Shown piece by piece: positions 48,512-55,842 of a DNA stretch of 64,000 bases; the first letter of the stretch is position 1; each line of letters starts with the position of its first letter. The DNA is taken from NCBI RefSeq assembly GCF_005877005.1, contig NZ_SSNH01000001.1, positions 248,001 to 312,000 of the forward strand, read 5' to 3'. The notes under the pieces are model-generated. The model ran no database searches. It was not told the origin of the DNA and saw nothing but the letters and a program-made list of their open reading frames with translations. A program made the translations under genes and the position numbers. The DNA comes from Sinomonas susongensis. GTDB lineage: Bacteria > Actinomycetota > Actinomycetes > Actinomycetales > Micrococcaceae.

Positions 48512-50110
48512 GTGACAACAGCATCCCAGAGCGCCGGCTCGCAGACAGCCCACAGGCCCGTGCTCGTGGTGGACTACGGTGCCCAGTACGCGCAGCTCAT
48601 CGCGCGGCGCGTCCGCGAGGCGAACGTCTACTCCGAGATCGTCCCGCACACCCTCACCACTGAGCAGATCCTCGCCAAGAACCCAGCGGCCATCATCCTC
48701 TCGGGCGGACCGTCGAGCGTCTACGCCGACGGCGCCCCGCGCGTGGGCTCGGACCTGTTCTCGGCGGGCGTGCCGGTCTTCGGCATCTGCTACGGCTTCC
48801 AGGCCATGGCAAACGCTCTCGGCGGCCTTGTCGCGAAGACGGGCCTGCGCGAGTACGGATCCACCCAGGTCTCCGCGGTAGGGGAGCCCCACTCGATCCT
48901 CGCCGGCGTGCCGGTGCTTCAGAGCACCTGGATGAGCCACGGCGACGCGGTCCAGGAGGCCCCTGACGGCTTCGAGGTCCTCGCCACCACCCCCGGCGCT
49001 CCCGTCGCCGCTTTCGTGAACCTCGAGAAGTCGCTCGGCGGCGTGCAGTGGCACCCGGAGGTCAAGCACTCCGAGTACGGACAGCAGGTCCTCGAGAACT
49101 TCCTGTTCGGCGTAGCGGGGCTCGAGCGCAACTGGACCACGGGCAACATCGTCGACGAGCAGATCGGGCGCATCCGCGACCAGATCGGTGACGCGCGCGT
49201 CATCTGCGGCCTCTCGGGAGGAGTGGACTCGGCGGTGGCTGCCGCGCTCGTGCAGCGCGCCGTCGGCGACCAGCTGACGTGTGTCTTCGTCGACCACGGC
49301 CTCCTCCGCGAAGGCGAGGCCGAGCAGGTGGAGCGCGACTTCGTTGCGGCAACCGGCGTCAACCTCTACGTTGCGAACGAGCAGGAGCGGTTCCTCTCTG
49401 CGCTCGCCGGAGTCACCGACCCGGAGCAGAAGCGAAAGATCATCGGACGCGAGTTCATCCGCGCGTTCGAAGAGGCCGAGCGCACCATCGTCGAGAAGGC
49501 CAAGGCCGAGGGCGATCAGATCCGTTTCCTCGTCCAGGGCACCCTTTACCCTGACGTCGTCGAGTCCGGCGGCGGCGAGGGAGCCGCGAACATCAAGAGC
49601 CACCACAACGTGGGCGGCCTCCCAGAGGACATGCGCTTCGAGCTCGTGGAGCCCCTTCGCACGCTCTTCAAGGACGAGGTGCGTGCTGTCGGTCGGCAGC
49701 TCGGCCTTCCAGCCGAGATCGTGGGGCGTCAGCCCTTCCCCGGGCCGGGTCTGGGGATCCGGATCATCGGCGAAGTAACGCACGAGCGCCTGGAGCTCCT
49801 CCGCAAGGCGGACGCGATCGCCCGCCACGAGCTCACGGCGGCCGGGCTCGACGACGAGGTGTGGCAGATGCCGGTCGTGCTGCTGGCCGACGTCCGCAGC
49901 GTGGGCGTCCAGGGCGACGGCCGCACATACGGCCACCCCATCGTCCTTCGCCCGGTCTCGAGCGAGGACGCGATGACGGCCGACTGGTCGCGCCTTCCAT
50001 TCGACCTCCTCTCGCGGATCTCCAACCGGATCACGAACGAGGTCGAGGGAGTCAACCGCGTGGTCCTCGACGTCACGAGCAAGCCCCCGGGAACCATCGA
50101 GTGGGAGTGA
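48512..50110 (+). CDS. guaA: GMP synthase (glutamine-hydrolysing)
   Basis: 532 aa, converting XMP to GMP. The class I amidotransferase domain (residues 1-200) has the nucleophile Cys93 in [12 protein letters not shown] and [14 protein letters not shown] with the His-Glu pair. The ATP-pyrophosphatase domain starts with [16 protein letters not shown]. The dimerisation domain has [18 protein letters not shown] and [13 protein letters not shown], ending [13 protein letters not shown] 48512 matches the leaderless promoter. guaA lies about 5 kb downstream of guaB, on the same strand but in a separate transcript, and is followed by a terminator. Confidence 0.97.
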
Positions 50111-50182: not shown

Positions 50183-53100
50183 ATGCCGATCAGGTCCATA
50201 GGCAAACGACGGAGCGCTCCAGACAGCGCGGAGGAGAGCAGGGACGTGCCCCAGCATCCGGGTATGCAGGAAGACGAGGCCCGCCTTGAGGCGTGGCTTT
50301 CGGCGCTGCCTGCCGTCACGGGACCCGACACCATGCTCAGCTTCTACCCCACCCCTGAGGGTGCCGTCGAGCTCACCTCGGCGAACGCGTCCGGTCTGGC
50401 CCAGCTGCTCGCCGGGCGCCGGACCCGTCTCTCGACCCTCGTCCGCGAGCGGCAGGACTACACGACCGCAGCCCGGGCTGCGCGGAATCTCCGAGCGAAG
50501 ATCTACGAGCTCGCGAACGAGCGAGGGCTGGACGCCGGCCATCTGGCCGCGGGCATCGCAACATGGACCTCCGCTGTAGGAGGCCGGCCCCGCCGCGTGA
50601 GCGCGCCCGTGCTCTTGGCCGGCGTCGCGCTGACCGTGCGCGCCGAGCAGGACGATTTCGAGATCAAGCTCACCGAGCCCGCGCGGCTCAATCCGGCCCT
50701 CGTCCGGCACCTGCGCAGCGTGCACCGTCTCGACATTGACGTCGCCGCGGTCGAACGGCTTGCGTACAGCACGGCACGACTCGATCCTCATCCGGTGCTC
50801 GAGCGCTTCCGTGCCATCCTGAGCGGCATACCTGGTGCATCGGTGGAGACCAGGCTGCTCGTCTCGACCTTCGCGGACCTCGAACACGCGCTCGATGACC
50901 CCGCCATCACCGCGGGCGCCCCCGTGGTCGCTTCGCTCGCCGCGGCGTCTCGCTCGGTCCACATCGCCCCGAACCCCCTCGACCCATCGCGCTTCACACC
51001 GATCGACGAGCGGCCGCCATCGCACGAACTCCTGGTCCTGGACGCCGACGCAGACCAGCAGCTTGCCATCGATTCCGCTCGTGCGGGCGACTCCCTCGTC
51101 GTCGAGACTCCGCCCGGAACGGGCCAGACGCAGACGGCCGTCAACGTCATCGCCAATCTCGTGGATGCAGGCCGGACCGTCCTCGTCGTGGCGGAGCGCC
51201 GCGCGAGCCTGGTCGAGCTCAATCAAGCGTGCGAGCGATTGGGCCTCGGCTCGCTCCTCCTCCAGCTGGGCACCGGGCTGACGGCGAATCAGCTCAAGCA
51301 GCAGCTGGTCCGTGCCATTGTCCGGAATGAGAAGGCCGAACAGCCTCGCCTCGAGTCCATCCACCGGACTCTGATCGAGCGGCGGTATCAGCTCCTCGAG
51401 CACGTCGAGTCCCTTCACAATGTGCGCGAGAGGTGGGGCTGCTCCCCGTACGAGGCCATGCAGTCCCTCGCGGCGCTCACGTCCATCCACCCGTCGCCGG
51501 CGACCACCGTGCGGCTCAAGCGCAGCGTCCTCGACAGCATCCGCGAACGGCGGGAGCTTGCGGAACGCCTTCGTCGCGCCGCCGAGCTCGGCAGCTTCAG
51601 CCGCGAGGCCACGACCAGCCCCTGGTACGGGGCGAGGATGCTGACCCGTCGCGAGACGGAGGACGCCCAGGCCCTCGTGGAGACCCTCGTCGCCGGCCTT
51701 CCTGCACTGCGGGACCGGATGGCGACGCTCGCGGCCCACTCCGAGATCCGCCTCGGATCCTCTGTCGACGAGTGGGGAGGGCAGATCGAGATGCTCGTCG
51801 CAGTCCGCGAGAGCCTCGACAAGTTCACCCCGGACATCTTCGACCGCCCTGTCGACGACCTCATTGCAGCGACCGCCCCGACGGCCTGGCGCAGGGAACG
51901 CGGGATCGAGATTCCGGCGATGCAGCGATCGCGGCTTCGCCGGGTGGCCAAAGAGTACGTCCGACCGGGCGTTCACCTCGCCGATCTGCACAGCTCGCTC
52001 ATCCTTGTCCAGGAGCAGCGGGCCCAGTGGTCCGAGTACGCCGTCTCGCAACGGCACCCGATGGTTCCATCCGGGCTCGCGGATCTCCGGGAGGACTATC
52101 GTGCAGTCCGCAAGGGGCTCGAGCGGCTCGGACATGTGATTGCAGGGACAAGGAGCGGCGGGGACCTGCTGCGAGCCCCTGTGGTTGAGGTGCAGGGCCG
52201 CCTCGAGGATCTCTCCGGAAGCTATGATTCCCTGCGGTCGCTGCCCGAGAGGACTCTTCTCGAGGACGAGCTGCGGGAGCGCGGGCTCGGCGAGCTTCTC
52301 GACGACCTCGCGGCGCGGCAGGCCTCGCCCGAGGTTGTTGCCTCTGAGCTCGAGCTGGCGTGGTGGCAGTCCGTCCTCGAGGCGATGATCAGCGGCGACG
52401 ACTACCTGGCGATGTCCGATGGCGCCCAGCTGCGCGCGGCGGAGGAGGAGTTCCGCCGCGCTGATCGCGCCCACATCGCCTCGGGCGCTGCCCGAGTCCG
52501 CTGGCGGCTCGCCGGAGAGTGGGGCCGGGCGCTGGGCGAGCACCCGCGCGAGGCGGAATCGCTGCGGAACCAGCTCAAGGACGGGCGCATCAGCCTCGCG
52601 GCCCTCGAATCCCAGGTCCCCCACCTTGTGCGGCCGCTCGTGCCGGTCTGGACGGCGAGCCCGTACGCCTTGGCTTCGGCAGCCCCTGCCCGGCGCCAAT
52701 TCGACGCCGTCGTGATCCTCGACGCCGACTCGCTGCCGCTCCGGGCCGCGCTGCCCGCGGTTGCGAGGGCCCGGCAGGTCATCGCCTTCGGAGACACCCA
52801 CGTCGCGAATCCGAAGCCCTTCACCGTTGGCGTCGACCACGGCCCCCAGCCCCAGGAGCCCGGCGAGGAGGTCGAGAGCGCCTTCGACGCTCTGAGCAGG
52901 GTCCTCCCGACCGTGCGGCTCAAGACCGTGTACCGCGGGGTTGACGAGGAACTCGGCCTCCAGCTGAGCCACCGGTTCTACGAAGGGGTGCTGCGCCGGC
53001 TGCCGGACGGACAGTCCGTCACCGGTCTGGACCGTGCGCTCCTGGTTGAATACCTTCCGGACGGCACCGGAATGCCGTCGGGCCAGGACGGAAACGTCGA

Positions 53101-54520
53101 GTCGGTCGCGGCCGAGGTCAATCGTGTGGTGGACCTCGTGTTCGAGCATGCCGCCCGCCGTCCGAACTCGTCGCTCGCTGTCGTGACCGCCAGCCCTCAG
53201 CACGCGGCCCGAGTGGGTGAGGCGATCCGTCTCCAGATGGCCAACCACACGGACACGAAGGAGTTCTTCAGCGGCAGGGAGGAACCCTTCCGGGTCGTCC
53301 CTGTCGACCGAGCCGGGGGACTGGTCCGCGATCACGTCATCTTCTCGCTCGGCTACGGGCGAACGCCGCACGGTCGTGCAATGCACTACTTCGGGCCCCT
53401 GAGCGAGCCAGGCGGCCGCCGTCGCTTCGCGCTCGCGATGAGCAGGGCACGGCACACGATGCACGTCCTGACGTGCTTCCAACCAGGGGAGCTCGACGAG
53501 AGCCGTCTCAGCGAGGGCGCGCGAGACTTCCATGAGCTCCTCGAACGGGAACTTGCCGGACGGACCGAACTCGGGACGAGGGCTACCCGGGCAGCGTCCA
53601 GCAGTGAATCCCTCGGGGCGGACCCGCTCGTGACCGATCTGGGGGAGCGGCTGGCTTCCCGCGGCGCGAGGGTGTGGCATCACTACGACGGCGCCATCGA
53701 CATGGCCGCGGCAGTGGATCCGCTCCTCACCCTCTCCCGGGACGAGCAGGAGCAGAGCGCCCCGGTCGCCGTCGAGTCGGACGGCACGAACCGGTACCGC
53801 GAGCTCAGTGTTCGCGAGCGCAGCCGTCAGCGGCCTGAGCTGCTCGAGCGGATGGGGTGGCGCTACTTCACCCTGTGGACCATCGAGGTCTTCACGGATC
53901 CGGGCAGCTGCGCCGACATGATCGCCGACCTTCTCGGCCTCGACGGACAGTCGGATGAGGGTAACGGCGCCGGGTTCCTCGCCGGTGACGCAATGGGCGC
54001 GCGCCGCACTGACGACACCGTGACGGAGCTGTGGGGTGCCGAGGGCAGGCCGGACGGTGATGCCGCCGGCAGCGTCTGGAATGACATGGTGATCGAAAGG
54101 GGAGCGGAGGATGCGTACCGCAATGATTCCGCCGCGTACGGCCAACGGCTTCCCCTCGAGGACTACAGGGAAGGATCTCCGGTGGCAGCACGCGACCATT
54201 TCGGCTCGCATCGCCGCGTGACGGTTCCCGCGACGGGCGCCGGCGACGACGGCTCCGAGCAGGCCTCGGCCGCCGGAGGCCCGGAGGACGCCGAGGACAG
54301 GATCGATCAGAGGCCAGAGGCAGCTGATGGTTCTTCGGGCCAGCCCATGTCCCGGAGGGAAGTCCGGGGAGCGGAGGGATCCGGCCGTCGCCGGGAGGTC
54401 GGGGAGCCCGCGCTCCCGCGCCCCGCCGGCGAGGACGATCCCCGGGCATGGGGGGACCGCGAGTCCGAGCGCGATCGCGACAGCTGGCTCAAGGACCAGC
54501 GGCCGCCGCACTGGGGCTGA
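50183..54520 (+). CDS. SF1-helicase-like protein with degenerate ATPase motifs and C-terminal Vsr-like nuclease domain
   Basis: 1445 aa. The scaffold is that of large Dna2/UPF1-type SF1 proteins. LVVETPPGTGQTQTAVNVI (residues 306-324) sits where Walker A should be, but the essential Lys is Gln315. DAVVILDADSLPL (Asp847-Ala848) replaces the Walker B D-E-A. IAFGDTHVANPKPF lacks the motif III Gln, while LKTVYRGVDEELGLQLSHRFYEGVL (motif IV) is intact. VVPVDRAGGLVRDHVIFSLGYG lacks the QG-x-E of motif V, but RRRFALAMSRARHTMHV (Arg1088, Arg1090) keeps motif VI. A C-terminal domain (about 1155-1265) with Asp1173 in AIDMAA and Glu1198/Asp1200 in AVESDG, then MGWRYFTLWTIEVF, matches the Vsr/MTES_1575 nuclease fold. 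The last 180 residues are disordered and charged. It is probably not an active ATPase. Confidence 0.8.
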   Translation: MPIRSIGKRRSAPDSAEESRDVPQHPGMQEDEARLEAWLSALPAVTGPDTMLSFYPTPEGAVELTSANASGLAQLLAGRRTRLSTLVRERQDYTTAARAARNLRAKIYELANERGLDAGHLAAGIATWTSAVGGRPRRVSAPVLLAGVALTVRAEQDDFEIKLTEPARLNPALVRHLRSVHRLDIDVAAVERLAYSTARLDPHPVLERFRAILSGIPGASVETRLLVSTFADLEHALDDPAITAGAPVVASLAAASRSVHIAPNPLDPSRFTPIDERPPSHELLVLDADADQQLAIDSARAGDSLVVETPPGTGQTQTAVNVIANLVDAGRTVLVVAERRASLVELNQACERLGLGSLLLQLGTGLTANQLKQQLVRAIVRNEKAEQPRLESIHRTLIERRYQLLEHVESLHNVRERWGCSPYEAMQSLAALTSIHPSPATTVRLKRSVLDSIRERRELAERLRRAAELGSFSREATTSPWYGARMLTRRETEDAQALVETLVAGLPALRDRMATLAAHSEIRLGSSVDEWGGQIEMLVAVRESLDKFTPDIFDRPVDDLIAATAPTAWRRERGIEIPAMQRSRLRRVAKEYVRPGVHLADLHSSLILVQEQRAQWSEYAVSQRHPMVPSGLADLREDYRAVRKGLERLGHVIAGTRSGGDLLRAPVVEVQGRLEDLSGSYDSLRSLPERTLLEDELRERGLGELLDDLAARQASPEVVASELELAWWQSVLEAMISGDDYLAMSDGAQLRAAEEEFRRADRAHIASGAARVRWRLAGEWGRALGEHPREAESLRNQLKDGRISLAALESQVPHLVRPLVPVWTASPYALASAAPARRQFDAVVILDADSLPLRAALPAVARARQVIAFGDTHVANPKPFTVGVDHGPQPQEPGEEVESAFDALSRVLPTVRLKTVYRGVDEELGLQLSHRFYEGVLRRLPDGQSVTGLDRALLVEYLPDGTGMPSGQDGNVESVAAEVNRVVDLVFEHAARRPNSSLAVVTASPQHAARVGEAIRLQMANHTDTKEFFSGREEPFRVVPVDRAGGLVRDHVIFSLGYGRTPHGRAMHYFGPLSEPGGRRRFALAMSRARHTMHVLTCFQPGELDESRLSEGARDFHELLERELAGRTELGTRATRAASSSESLGADPLVTDLGERLASRGARVWHHYDGAIDMAAAVDPLLTLSRDEQEQSAPVAVESDGTNRYRELSVRERSRQRPELLERMGWRYFTLWTIEVFTDPGSCADMIADLLGLDGQSDEGNGAGFLAGDAMGARRTDDTVTELWGAEGRPDGDAAGSVWNDMVIERGAEDAYRNDSAAYGQRLPLEDYREGSPVAARDHFGSHRRVTVPATGAGDDGSEQASAAGGPEDAEDRIDQRPEAADGSSGQPMSRREVRGAEGSGRRREVGEPALPRPAGEDDPRAWGDRESERDRDSWLKDQRPPHWG

Positions 54521-54561: not shown

Positions 54562-55344
54562 TCATCTGGCTGCCTCGACGAGCGCGAAGAAGACCTTGCC
54601 CCGGGCTGACGCTCCCGCAAGGAGGGGCGCCGTTTCGGGGGAGGCCGCGACGACGAGCAGTCCGTTCTGGTCCTTCGGAGTGCCGAGCCATGCGCTGGGC
54701 TGCTCCCCGCCGGAGCCCGTCCAGAGGACGGTCACCCCGGCCGCGATCCGTGCGGCGTTCCGCCCTTCCCGACCCGACTCCTCCGCGAGTACGAGGTCGA
54801 CCGTCTGCCCGGTGCGGATCAGCTGAAGGGAGTTGGGGTCGGCGACCCTCACAGGGACCGCCGCCGTCCCCGGTGGCGTTCCTGCAAGGAGACCAGGCCC
54901 GACGGTCGAGGTGTCCGTGAGCACACTGCCTCGTCGAACGGGAGCAGCGAGACGCTTGCCCTCGGCAGCGGCCGGTTCGCGCAGTGCTCCGTCTGGCACC
55001 GACTCCGGCGGAAGGCGGGCTATCCGGAGCTGGGAGGCCGAGACGGGCGAACCGGCCGGCAGGTCGGTCGCGGCCACTACGACGGGGGACTGCAGCGTCG
55101 AGGCTGGAGCCAGCAGGTAGACAGAGGCTGCCACTGCACCGGAGAGCAGGCCTGCGGCGAGGGTGCGGCGCCGTCGTCCCAGGAAGCGAACGAGTGGCGA
55201 GCGTCGCTGCGTCCCCCAAGGGTGCACCGTCCTGGGCGGACTCTCGCCGTCAAGGGATGATTGCCGAGCACCGGGCCGGCCCGATGTCAGACGGCCGGAG
55301 TGTCCCGACGAGAGGCGGCGGGACTGGCCTGGGAAGAGGGGCAT
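54562..55344 (-). CDS. SAF-domain (CpaB/RcpC-like) membrane-anchored protein
   Basis: 260 aa. The first 55 residues are basic and polar, followed by one membrane helix (TLAAGLLSGAVAASVYLLAPA), then a SAF/CpaB domain: VVVAATDLPAGSPVSASQLRIARLP, KRLAAPVRRGSVLTDTSTV and a RcpC-like region (AAVPVRVADPNSLQLIRTGQTVDLVLAEE). CpaB/RcpC proteins are periplasmic parts of Flp/Tad pilus systems, but no tad genes are nearby, so a pilus role is uncertain. The long basic N-terminus may be over-extended: TTG/GTG starts nearer the helix are possible. Same direction as fmdB and the 5-FTHF cyclo-ligase gene, possibly a three-gene operon. Confidence 0.8.
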   Translation of the reverse strand: MPLFPGQSRRLSSGHSGRLTSGRPGARQSSLDGESPPRTVHPWGTQRRSPLVRFLGRRRRTLAAGLLSGAVAASVYLLAPASTLQSPVVVAATDLPAGSPVSASQLRIARLPPESVPDGALREPAAAEGKRLAAPVRRGSVLTDTSTVGPGLLAGTPPGTAAVPVRVADPNSLQLIRTGQTVDLVLAEESGREGRNAARIAAGVTVLWTGSGGEQPSAWLGTPKDQNGLLVVAASPETAPLLAGASARGKVFFALVEAAR

Positions 55345-55438: not shown

Positions 55439-55744
55439 TCAGCTGGCCGCAGCGGATGCGGCGGGAGCGGGGTTGGACGCGGGAGCCGCGGTGGTGGTCG
55501 TCGAGGAGCCGCTCGGGGAGGACGCGCCGGCTGCGGAAGTGTTGGAGCCGGCAGGCACCGTGCTCGAGCTGCGCGAGTCGGTGCGGTAGAAGCCGCTGCC
55601 CTTGAAGACGACGCCGACGCTGTTGAACTTCTTGCGCAGGCTGCCGCCGCACTCCGGGCACACGGTCAGGGAGTCGTCGCTGAACGACTGGACGATGTCG
55701 AAGGCATGTCCGCAGTCCTTGCAGGCGTATGCGTAAGTAGGCAC
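55439..55744 (-). CDS. FmdB-family zinc ribbon protein
   Basis: 101 aa from the GTG at 55744, preferred to the GTG at 55750 because AAGGAG lies 5 nt upstream and the family starts x-PTYxYxC. The zinc ribbon is PTYAYACKDCGHAFDIVQSFSDDSLTVCPECGGSLRK, with two CxxC knuckles. The C-terminal 50 residues are Ser/Thr/Ala/Pro-rich and disordered. The family is a putative regulator named from formamidase operons; its biochemical role is unknown. It lies between a cyclo-ligase and a SAF-domain gene on the minus strand. Confidence 0.9.
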   Translation of the reverse strand: MPTYAYACKDCGHAFDIVQSFSDDSLTVCPECGGSLRKKFNSVGVVFKGSGFYRTDSRSSSTVPAGSNTSAAGASSPSGSSTTTTAAPASNPAPAASAAAS

Positions 55745-55842
55745 AGTCACTCCTTGCGAAACGTGGGGCCAGTGGCAGTCGGCCAGCGGTCACGGACAGC
55801 TGGCAGTCGTCGACCCCGAGTGCCAATTCTAACAGGCCACGC

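Follow-up and report, generated by a model that had tools for sequence, protein, structure and literature searches.

Why should a bacterial lineage keep, largely in one place in its genomes and under purifying selection, a very large helicase that has lost the residues on which helicases depend for ATP hydrolysis? The question is raised by a gene of Sinomonas susongensis at positions 50183 to 54520 (+ strand) of the window, by which we mean the whole stretch of 64,000 nucleotides that was analysed. Its translation of 1445 residues combines a degenerate superfamily 1 (SF1) helicase, a nuclease-like domain, a fast-evolving linker and a tail ending in the motif PPHW. An earlier interpretation based on the letters alone (the sequence-only reading) had described the product as a helicase-like pseudo-ATPase with an apparently intact nuclease domain, repurposed as a DNA-binding scaffold or as a nucleotide-independent nuclease, and possibly a defence factor. 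The answer that we prefer, and hold with moderate confidence, is an ancient pseudo-helicase that was passed on mostly by vertical descent and acts as a scaffold for nucleic acids, in association with the PPHW module.

The state of the motor was judged from the best 80 of 533 related stretches, 79 of which are titled as Micrococcaceae genera or as the family and one (L065) as Sporosarcina; together with the window these 80 Micrococcaceae-type loci form an alignment of 81 rows. The motifs PPGTGQT (Gln315), VILDADS (Asp847, Ala848), GDTHVANPKPF, VYRGVDEE, DRAGGLVRD and FALAMSRAR all stand at the residues claimed in the sequence-only reading. In the degenerate Walker A motif (residues 306–318, GTGQTQT; 51098–51136, on the + strand like all parts of the protein) the lysine position, 315, is Gln in 80 rows and Leu in one, and Lys in none. 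In the degenerate Walker B motif (841–853, ILDADS; 52703–52741) the glutamate position, 848, is Ala in 79 rows, Ser in one and Gly in one, so that neither the P-loop lysine nor the Asp-Glu pair of active SF1 enzymes is present. The Q-G-x-E pattern of an active motif V is also missing from the degenerate motif V (1036–1056; 53288–53350), and motif III (866–881; 52778–52825) is degenerate as well. The motif IV region (912–924; 52916–52954) was located in the alignment, and motif VI (1078–1092; 53414–53458) agrees with SF1, its Arg1088 being retained in 81 of 81 rows. The alignment also qualifies three of the losses that had been described from the window. The motif V of the window does lack both Gln and Glu, and the Glu, two places on, is absent from every row, but the Gln is present in 51 of 81 (ERAQGLVRD). 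Motif III is changed in the window, but 20 rows have Gln at 873, one place ahead of the usual site. Finally, Ala848 does replace the Walker B Glu in the window, but most of the patterns listed carry an acid two places on (D-A-D/E), and the Walker B acid may, to judge from the sequences, be shifted rather than only lost.

What is left of the P-loop bears on one alternative, a nucleotide-binding switch in which ATP or GTP would be bound without being hydrolysed and would change the shape of the protein. The retention of GTGQT or GSGQT in 80 of 81 rows, the conservation of P311 and G312 (0.86 and 0.96) over 28 degenerate rows from other families and the invariant motif VI arginine are all in its favour. 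However, the lysine that would contact the phosphate is gone, and several other families have lost the entire P-loop and retained the gene, and we regard such a switch as distinctly unlikely.

Four changed catalytic motifs could also indicate a decaying gene or a sequencing error. Yet the reading frame is open for at least 1307 residues in all 80 Micrococcaceae-type loci, the replacements are fixed over the 81 rows, and the dN/dS of the core, estimated by NG86 for four Sinomonas pairs, is 0.038, 0.076, 0.096 and 0.102 (0.04–0.10 in round figures), which indicates purifying selection, the values being rough because core dS is 0.8–1.4. For the Micrococcaceae both explanations are rejected, with a very small residual probability, and the earlier judgement that sequencing error is unlikely holds. 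The same pairs give 0.03–0.08 for the nuclease domain, 0.11–0.26 for the PPHW tail and 0.25–0.50 for the linker (residues 1256–1395; 53948–54367). Since the loss of motor residues is fixed and purifying selection is strong, the proposal of a repurposed protein fits. The genome of the window itself gave a single match, that is, no intact second copy at the search threshold.

Although its motor residues are changed, the protein appears to have kept the architecture of a helicase. The AlphaFold model of residues 55–1252 (mean predicted local distance difference test score, pLDDT, 84.8; predicted template modelling score, pTM, 0.72) has an SF1B fold with two RecA-like domains of the UPF1 type. The best Foldseek matches were senataxin (expectation value, E, 1.8e-13), Aquarius, Upf1 and Dna2, with low whole-chain TM scores of 0.30–0.47, and VIA-align gave Z 18.7 both for Dna2 (root-mean-square deviation, rmsd, 4.9; 463 residues aligned) and for Ighmbp2 (4.7; 469). 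In the model a mostly helical insert (residues 421–835, 51443–52687, boundaries approximate) separates the first RecA-like part from Walker B. In 19 Micrococcaceae rows the most conserved 50-residue windows were residues 401–450, 551–600 and 701–750 (mean 0.83–0.86), which lie in or adjoin this insert (51383–52432) and outscore those that contain the catalytic motifs, so that the insert or its edge may offer a contact surface. Of the Pfam families found, only DUF4011 scored above its cut-off (PF13195, residues 93–177, 50459–50713; E 1.6e-5, 25.4 bits against 22.2), AAA_11 and MTES_1575 being below theirs. The structure alignments comprised 42 (A3) and 39 (A5) of 81 rows, and A1 comprised 24 of the loci then collected.

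Was the motor ever active? The comparison was extended to 64 other loci and six intact homologues from elsewhere, giving 150 loci with the 80 above; one of the 64 (L129) ends before Walker A, leaving 63 readable copies. The P-loop lysine is kept in eight of these, from two families, f17 (L134, L135, L136, L137, L247, L250) and f5 (L238, L239); in the other 55 it is replaced by Q, A, R, T, G, L, V, M or N, or hardly any P-loop is left. The six intact homologues, five of 1846–2167 residues and one of 1337, keep GKS and DEAS. Since such homologues and the copies of f17 and f5 exist, the ancestor was likely an active enzyme, and it is possible that f17 and f5 regained their intact motifs by transfer. 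Two other families thus do have copies whose GKS/GKT and DEAS motifs are normal, which the sequence-only reading would have taken as a sign that the window's copy is decaying, but the copies of the Micrococcaceae show no decay. On a quick tree of 75 rows (leaving out L129, L217, L144, L119, L128 and L020), one group of 50 rows from fifteen families, Micrococcaceae included, lacks the lysine throughout, with a Shimodaira–Hasegawa-like approximate likelihood ratio test (SH-aLRT) support of 100. Losses that look separate on the tree fall within f17 (L143, L248, L249) and in f38 and f25, both from other orders. At least four lysine changes were counted over the 75 rows, three when L249, L220, L126 and L212 are not counted, and three over 37 rows. 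Three approximately unbiased (AU) tests, which used 37 of 81 rows and groups picked after a tree had been seen, did not reject fewer losses (p = 0.238, 0.175 and 0.244). As these tests are compatible with fewer, several independent losses are not claimed. That intact and dead forms of one family occupy one locus makes what survives the loss of ATP hydrolysis directly testable.

The second enzymatic part is a Vsr/MTES_1575-like domain (residues 1148–1251; 53624–53935), assigned from its likeness to Pfam PF18741, its residues and, less clearly, its fold. On its own the domain matches PF18741 with E 2.7e-8 and 34.2 bits, under the gathering score of 38.2, and a match at E ≤ 0.01 was obtained in 39 of 39 rows scanned. 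The MTES_1575-type Vsr nuclease is described in PMC3710099; our domain resembles it in sequence and in its D, E, D acids but differs in the subthreshold score and in the changed His and RDRD aspartates of intact homologues. The acids of the Vsr type are present in the window and widely beyond it: all 81 rows have Glu1198 and Asp1200, and 67 have Asp1173, the other 14 having Asn there. Calling the domain intact was too strong, since further residues of the site are changed. The intact homologues L148, L149 and L212 have E-x-D-G-x-x-Y-H...A-R-D-R-D-R and the window has E-S-D-G-T-N-R-Y...V-R-E-R-S-R, in which the acids of E-x-D are retained. The His position (His in four of the six intact homologues) is Tyr1205 in all 81 rows, Glu1212 likewise replaces the first Asp of RDRD throughout, and the second Asp position, 1214, is Ser in 71, Thr in nine and Cys in one, so that no row has the His and final Asp of the intact homologues. 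The His is also gone from the f17 and f5 copies with intact motor motifs and from the intact homologues L146 and L147. The catalytic residues of this family are presumably those of Vsr-like enzymes. Modelled alone (pLDDT 75.8), the nuclease part had no Foldseek match under E 0.1; its VIA-align scores were middling, led by I-Bth0305I (Z 7.8, rmsd 3.0, 87 residues aligned), then Hjc and VRR_NUC, with Vsr (1cw0) at Z 6.2.

These data bear directly on a second alternative, an ATP-independent nuclease in which the helicase core would be a DNA-binding frame and the Vsr-type domain would still cut. The persistence of Glu1198, Asp1200 and mostly Asp1173, the strong selection on the domain and the PD-(D/E)XK-type nucleases at the head of the structural list, albeit with middling Z, speak for it; the 14 rows with Asn1173, the universal change of His to Tyr and of the final RDRD Asp to Ser, Thr or Cys speak against it, as do the many other families that keep the gene despite a lost Asp1173 or Glu1198 (Asp1173 is lost in all eight rows of f38, and Glu1198 in many other families). 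The nucleotide-independent nuclease of the sequence-only reading is weakened by these changes, and we consider it unlikely, if less so than the switch. Because residues of both nuclease and motor have changed while the gene was kept, the scaffold reading needs neither activity.

We think that the strongest functional lead is the C-terminal PPHW module (residues 1396–1445; 54368–54517), which the sequence-only reading overlooked and which is a separate small open reading frame (ORF) in other genomes. The last 50 residues of the window's protein end DRDSWLKDQRPPHWG, and the consensus of the module is LPDxTxDDxDxGWGE...RLLRERPPHW, ending in PPHW or PPHH; other examples are found at L226:6081-6317 (+) and L206:1462-1626 (+). 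One fixed pattern was applied to all 150 loci, with controls that gave no hit on the opposite strand and one upstream. The module is fused to the helicase in 68 of the 80 Micrococcaceae-type loci and is a separate ORF just downstream in the other 12; of the 64 other loci, 13 have it fused and 36 have it separate within 1.5 kb (49 of 64 in total), and it was found in none of the six intact homologues. At least nine changes between fused and separate states are needed on the tree. Of the 48 separate ORFs, at least 19 have a start codon overlapping the helicase stop by four bases, and RTGA occurs at the helicase stop in 26 of these 48 loci against 6 of 81 fused loci, the lineages differing between the two groups. 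A profile of the tail matched 136 of 246 genomes of the class, mostly once each, and a second profile, searched over the phylum, matched 23 of 296 genomes; of these, 21 belong to the same class, and the two from outside it are borderline. The A2 profile misses some PPHW ORFs that the pattern detects, for example in f19, and since rows of the A2 and A4 alignments were selected for PPHW or PPHH ends, conserved PPH columns there prove nothing. In L226 and L227 (f37) the PPHW ORF adjoins MscL (assigned by Pfam for L226), and the stretch examined shows no ORF for the helicase. For seven PPHW sequences NCBIfam gave no match and Pfam one sub-threshold match, to DUF3245; the module had no PDB match up to E 10 and nothing related in the open-licence literature. 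It is small enough for pull-downs and deletions and thereby offers a defined handle on function.

A third alternative, an anti-phage defence protein akin to ProA, PDC-S37 or Hhe, is best weighed against the spread and surroundings of the gene. The nearest named families are indeed PDC-S37 (PADLOC PDLC05009; 375 bits, best over residues 622–1248 of 1445, the tool displaying no curated cut-off), ProA (NCBIfam NF058533; 366.3 bits) and Hhe (NF042953; 165.6 bits), and the wider family is mobile, partial relatives (DUF3320/DUF4011 where named) being found in 274 of 72,556 plasmid records. However, the ProA and Hhe scores are far below their curated cut-offs, which lie at 1500 and 2000 bits. Among 50,697 phage records there is a single match, spanning 37% of the query, and coverage reaches 80% in only one of the plasmid records, a 415-kb replicon of Actinomyces oris that has a 29% relative at the same mscL locus. 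That replicon (L256, NZ_CP116225.1), a "plasmid" record, carries mscL, FCL and glp, genes expected on a chromosome, and might be a chromid or mislabelled. When residues 829–1254 were searched against 149 sampled genomes of the window's order, which we take to be GTDB Actinomycetales, a match was obtained in 145 at E ≤ 0.001 and a homologue in 136 at E ≤ 1e-12, although in some of the 136 the best match is possibly an intact homologue and not this gene itself. All ten sampled genomes of f14 are without a clear homologue (nine weak matches, one none), unlike most of the order, and three more of the 149 had no match at E ≤ 0.001. A pseudo-enzyme as a core gene over so many families would, in our judgement, be unusual in bacteria. 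Core status alone does not settle the question of defence, since a core DUF4011 gene that flanks a defence hotspot is reported from every Pseudomonas aeruginosa isolate (PMC10250203). With the gene in 136 of 149 genomes, mostly beside the same neighbours, and plasmid and phage matches scarce, a mobile defence gene is not favoured; the defence role suggested earlier is weakened, even though the nearest named families are anti-phage, and we give it a low probability, slightly below that of the switch.

The neighbours themselves are largely constant in the Micrococcaceae-type loci. Upstream and co-directed in 80 of 80 loci is an ORF that we take from its sequence to be guaA (48512–50110, +), and the helicase starts 72 bases past its stop. 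Downstream and convergent lie a SAF/RcpC-CpaB domain gene (54562–55344, −; Pfam SAF 9.1e-13, RcpC 9.2e-9), found in 80 of 80 loci, and a zinc-ribbon gene (55439–55750, −; Pfam Zn_ribbon_8 1.5e-15), found in 78 of 80, which is presumably of the FmdB type and would then be kin to Rv0991c/Ruc; an FCL gene is also downstream in 78 of 80. MscL, SAF, FmdB or FCL is found downstream on the other strand in all 80 of these loci and, within 6 kb, in 57 of the 64 others, but in none of the six intact homologues. The annotated order in Actinomyces oris WVU627 is 'DNA helicase', 'hypothetical protein', mscL, SAF, FCL and glp, and the hypothetical protein has the C-terminus NDARLRRDVPPHWG. L065, titled Sporosarcina beigongshangi, has the Micrococcaceae order guaA, helicase, SAF, FmdB, FCL and galU, and this genome is probably mislabelled. 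A SAF/CpaB gene is required for transformation in M. luteus (PMC8467076); by its HTH-17 and CpaE neighbours it was taken for another locus and dropped. A search by term of the main text of a Schaalia transposon-sequencing (Tn-seq) study (PMC12369343) gave nothing on this gene.

Taken together, we infer a history in which a fusion of an SF1B (UPF1/Ighmbp2-like) helicase with a Vsr-type nuclease was probably driven by ATP, and two other families of the order have copies that, judged by their motifs, could still be. In the lineage that includes the Micrococcaceae, motor residues would have been lost and the nuclease site partly changed, with fold, locus and purifying selection staying. The dead core and the helical insert might then hold DNA or RNA passively, without unwinding, and the flexible linker would display the PPHW peptide, which might engage a conserved partner or be itself a working small protein. 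The repeated fusion and splitting of the tail would suit a peptide that is co-produced with the scaffold and serves in docking or delivery. More tentatively, and with less than even confidence, the whole might be an undescribed actinomycete two-part machine, formed by the PPHW protein (widespread in the class, usually single-copy) together with the giant dead helicase-nuclease that bears it or stands beside it, for the most part at the mscL/SAF/FmdB locus. Such a pair would be a core-genome nucleic-acid scaffold with RecC-like logic, a former enzyme having turned, perhaps more than once, into a structural component.

Several observations weigh against the scaffold interpretation. Gln or Arg in the P-loop together with a shifted acid (D-A-D/E) might still permit nucleotide binding, and an active nuclease is possible, since the D, E, D acids persist in most Micrococcaceae. 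The link to PPHW is not universal, 15 of the 64 other loci having no such ORF within 1.5 kb; in f38 (eight loci) it ends 226–942 bases downstream in five, was not found in one, and is about 3.5 kb away in L215 and L221, both counted among the 15. Fusion and adjacency are in any case linkage, not contact. None of the four neighbours occurs in seven of the 64 loci (L126, L127, L128, L132, L140, L141 and L220), at least three of which are cut by contig ends.

How does this protein compare with known systems? UPF1, Ighmbp2, senataxin and Dna2 have working P-loops; our protein is like these SF1B helicases in its predicted fold but differs in lacking the Walker A Lys, the Walker B Glu and the motif V Glu. 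ProA and PDC-S37, large helicase-nuclease proteins of anti-phage or candidate anti-phage systems, give the best profiles, whose matches span both the helicase core and the Vsr-type nuclease, but their models are longer (1903 and 1550 positions). The six intact homologues, which were not themselves scanned against these models, differ in being without the MscL/SAF/FmdB locus and without PPHW. Among the papers listed in searches of the open-licence literature on DUF4011, PDC-S37, ProA and pseudo-helicases there was none on this gene and no recognised source for ProA. The parts are of known kinds, and the conserved dead form with its PPHW partner was not found in the family libraries and open-licence literature searched. 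It would mislead to call the gene after its best match, an anti-phage protein, or to label it a 'DNA helicase', as in the Actinomyces oris annotation. A parallel in the way of working may be RecC and AddB, UvrD-like subunits of RecBCD and AddAB (motor-nuclease complexes that act at DNA ends) in which a helicase fold holds DNA without a motor; membership is not implied, and neither was among the 50 structure matches listed, which is no evidence of absence. The yeast pseudohelicase Utp25 (PMC9539457) is similar in having retained a helicase fold in which its DEAD-box motifs are dispensable, but differs in belonging to the DEAD-box family and in acting in eukaryotic ribosome assembly.

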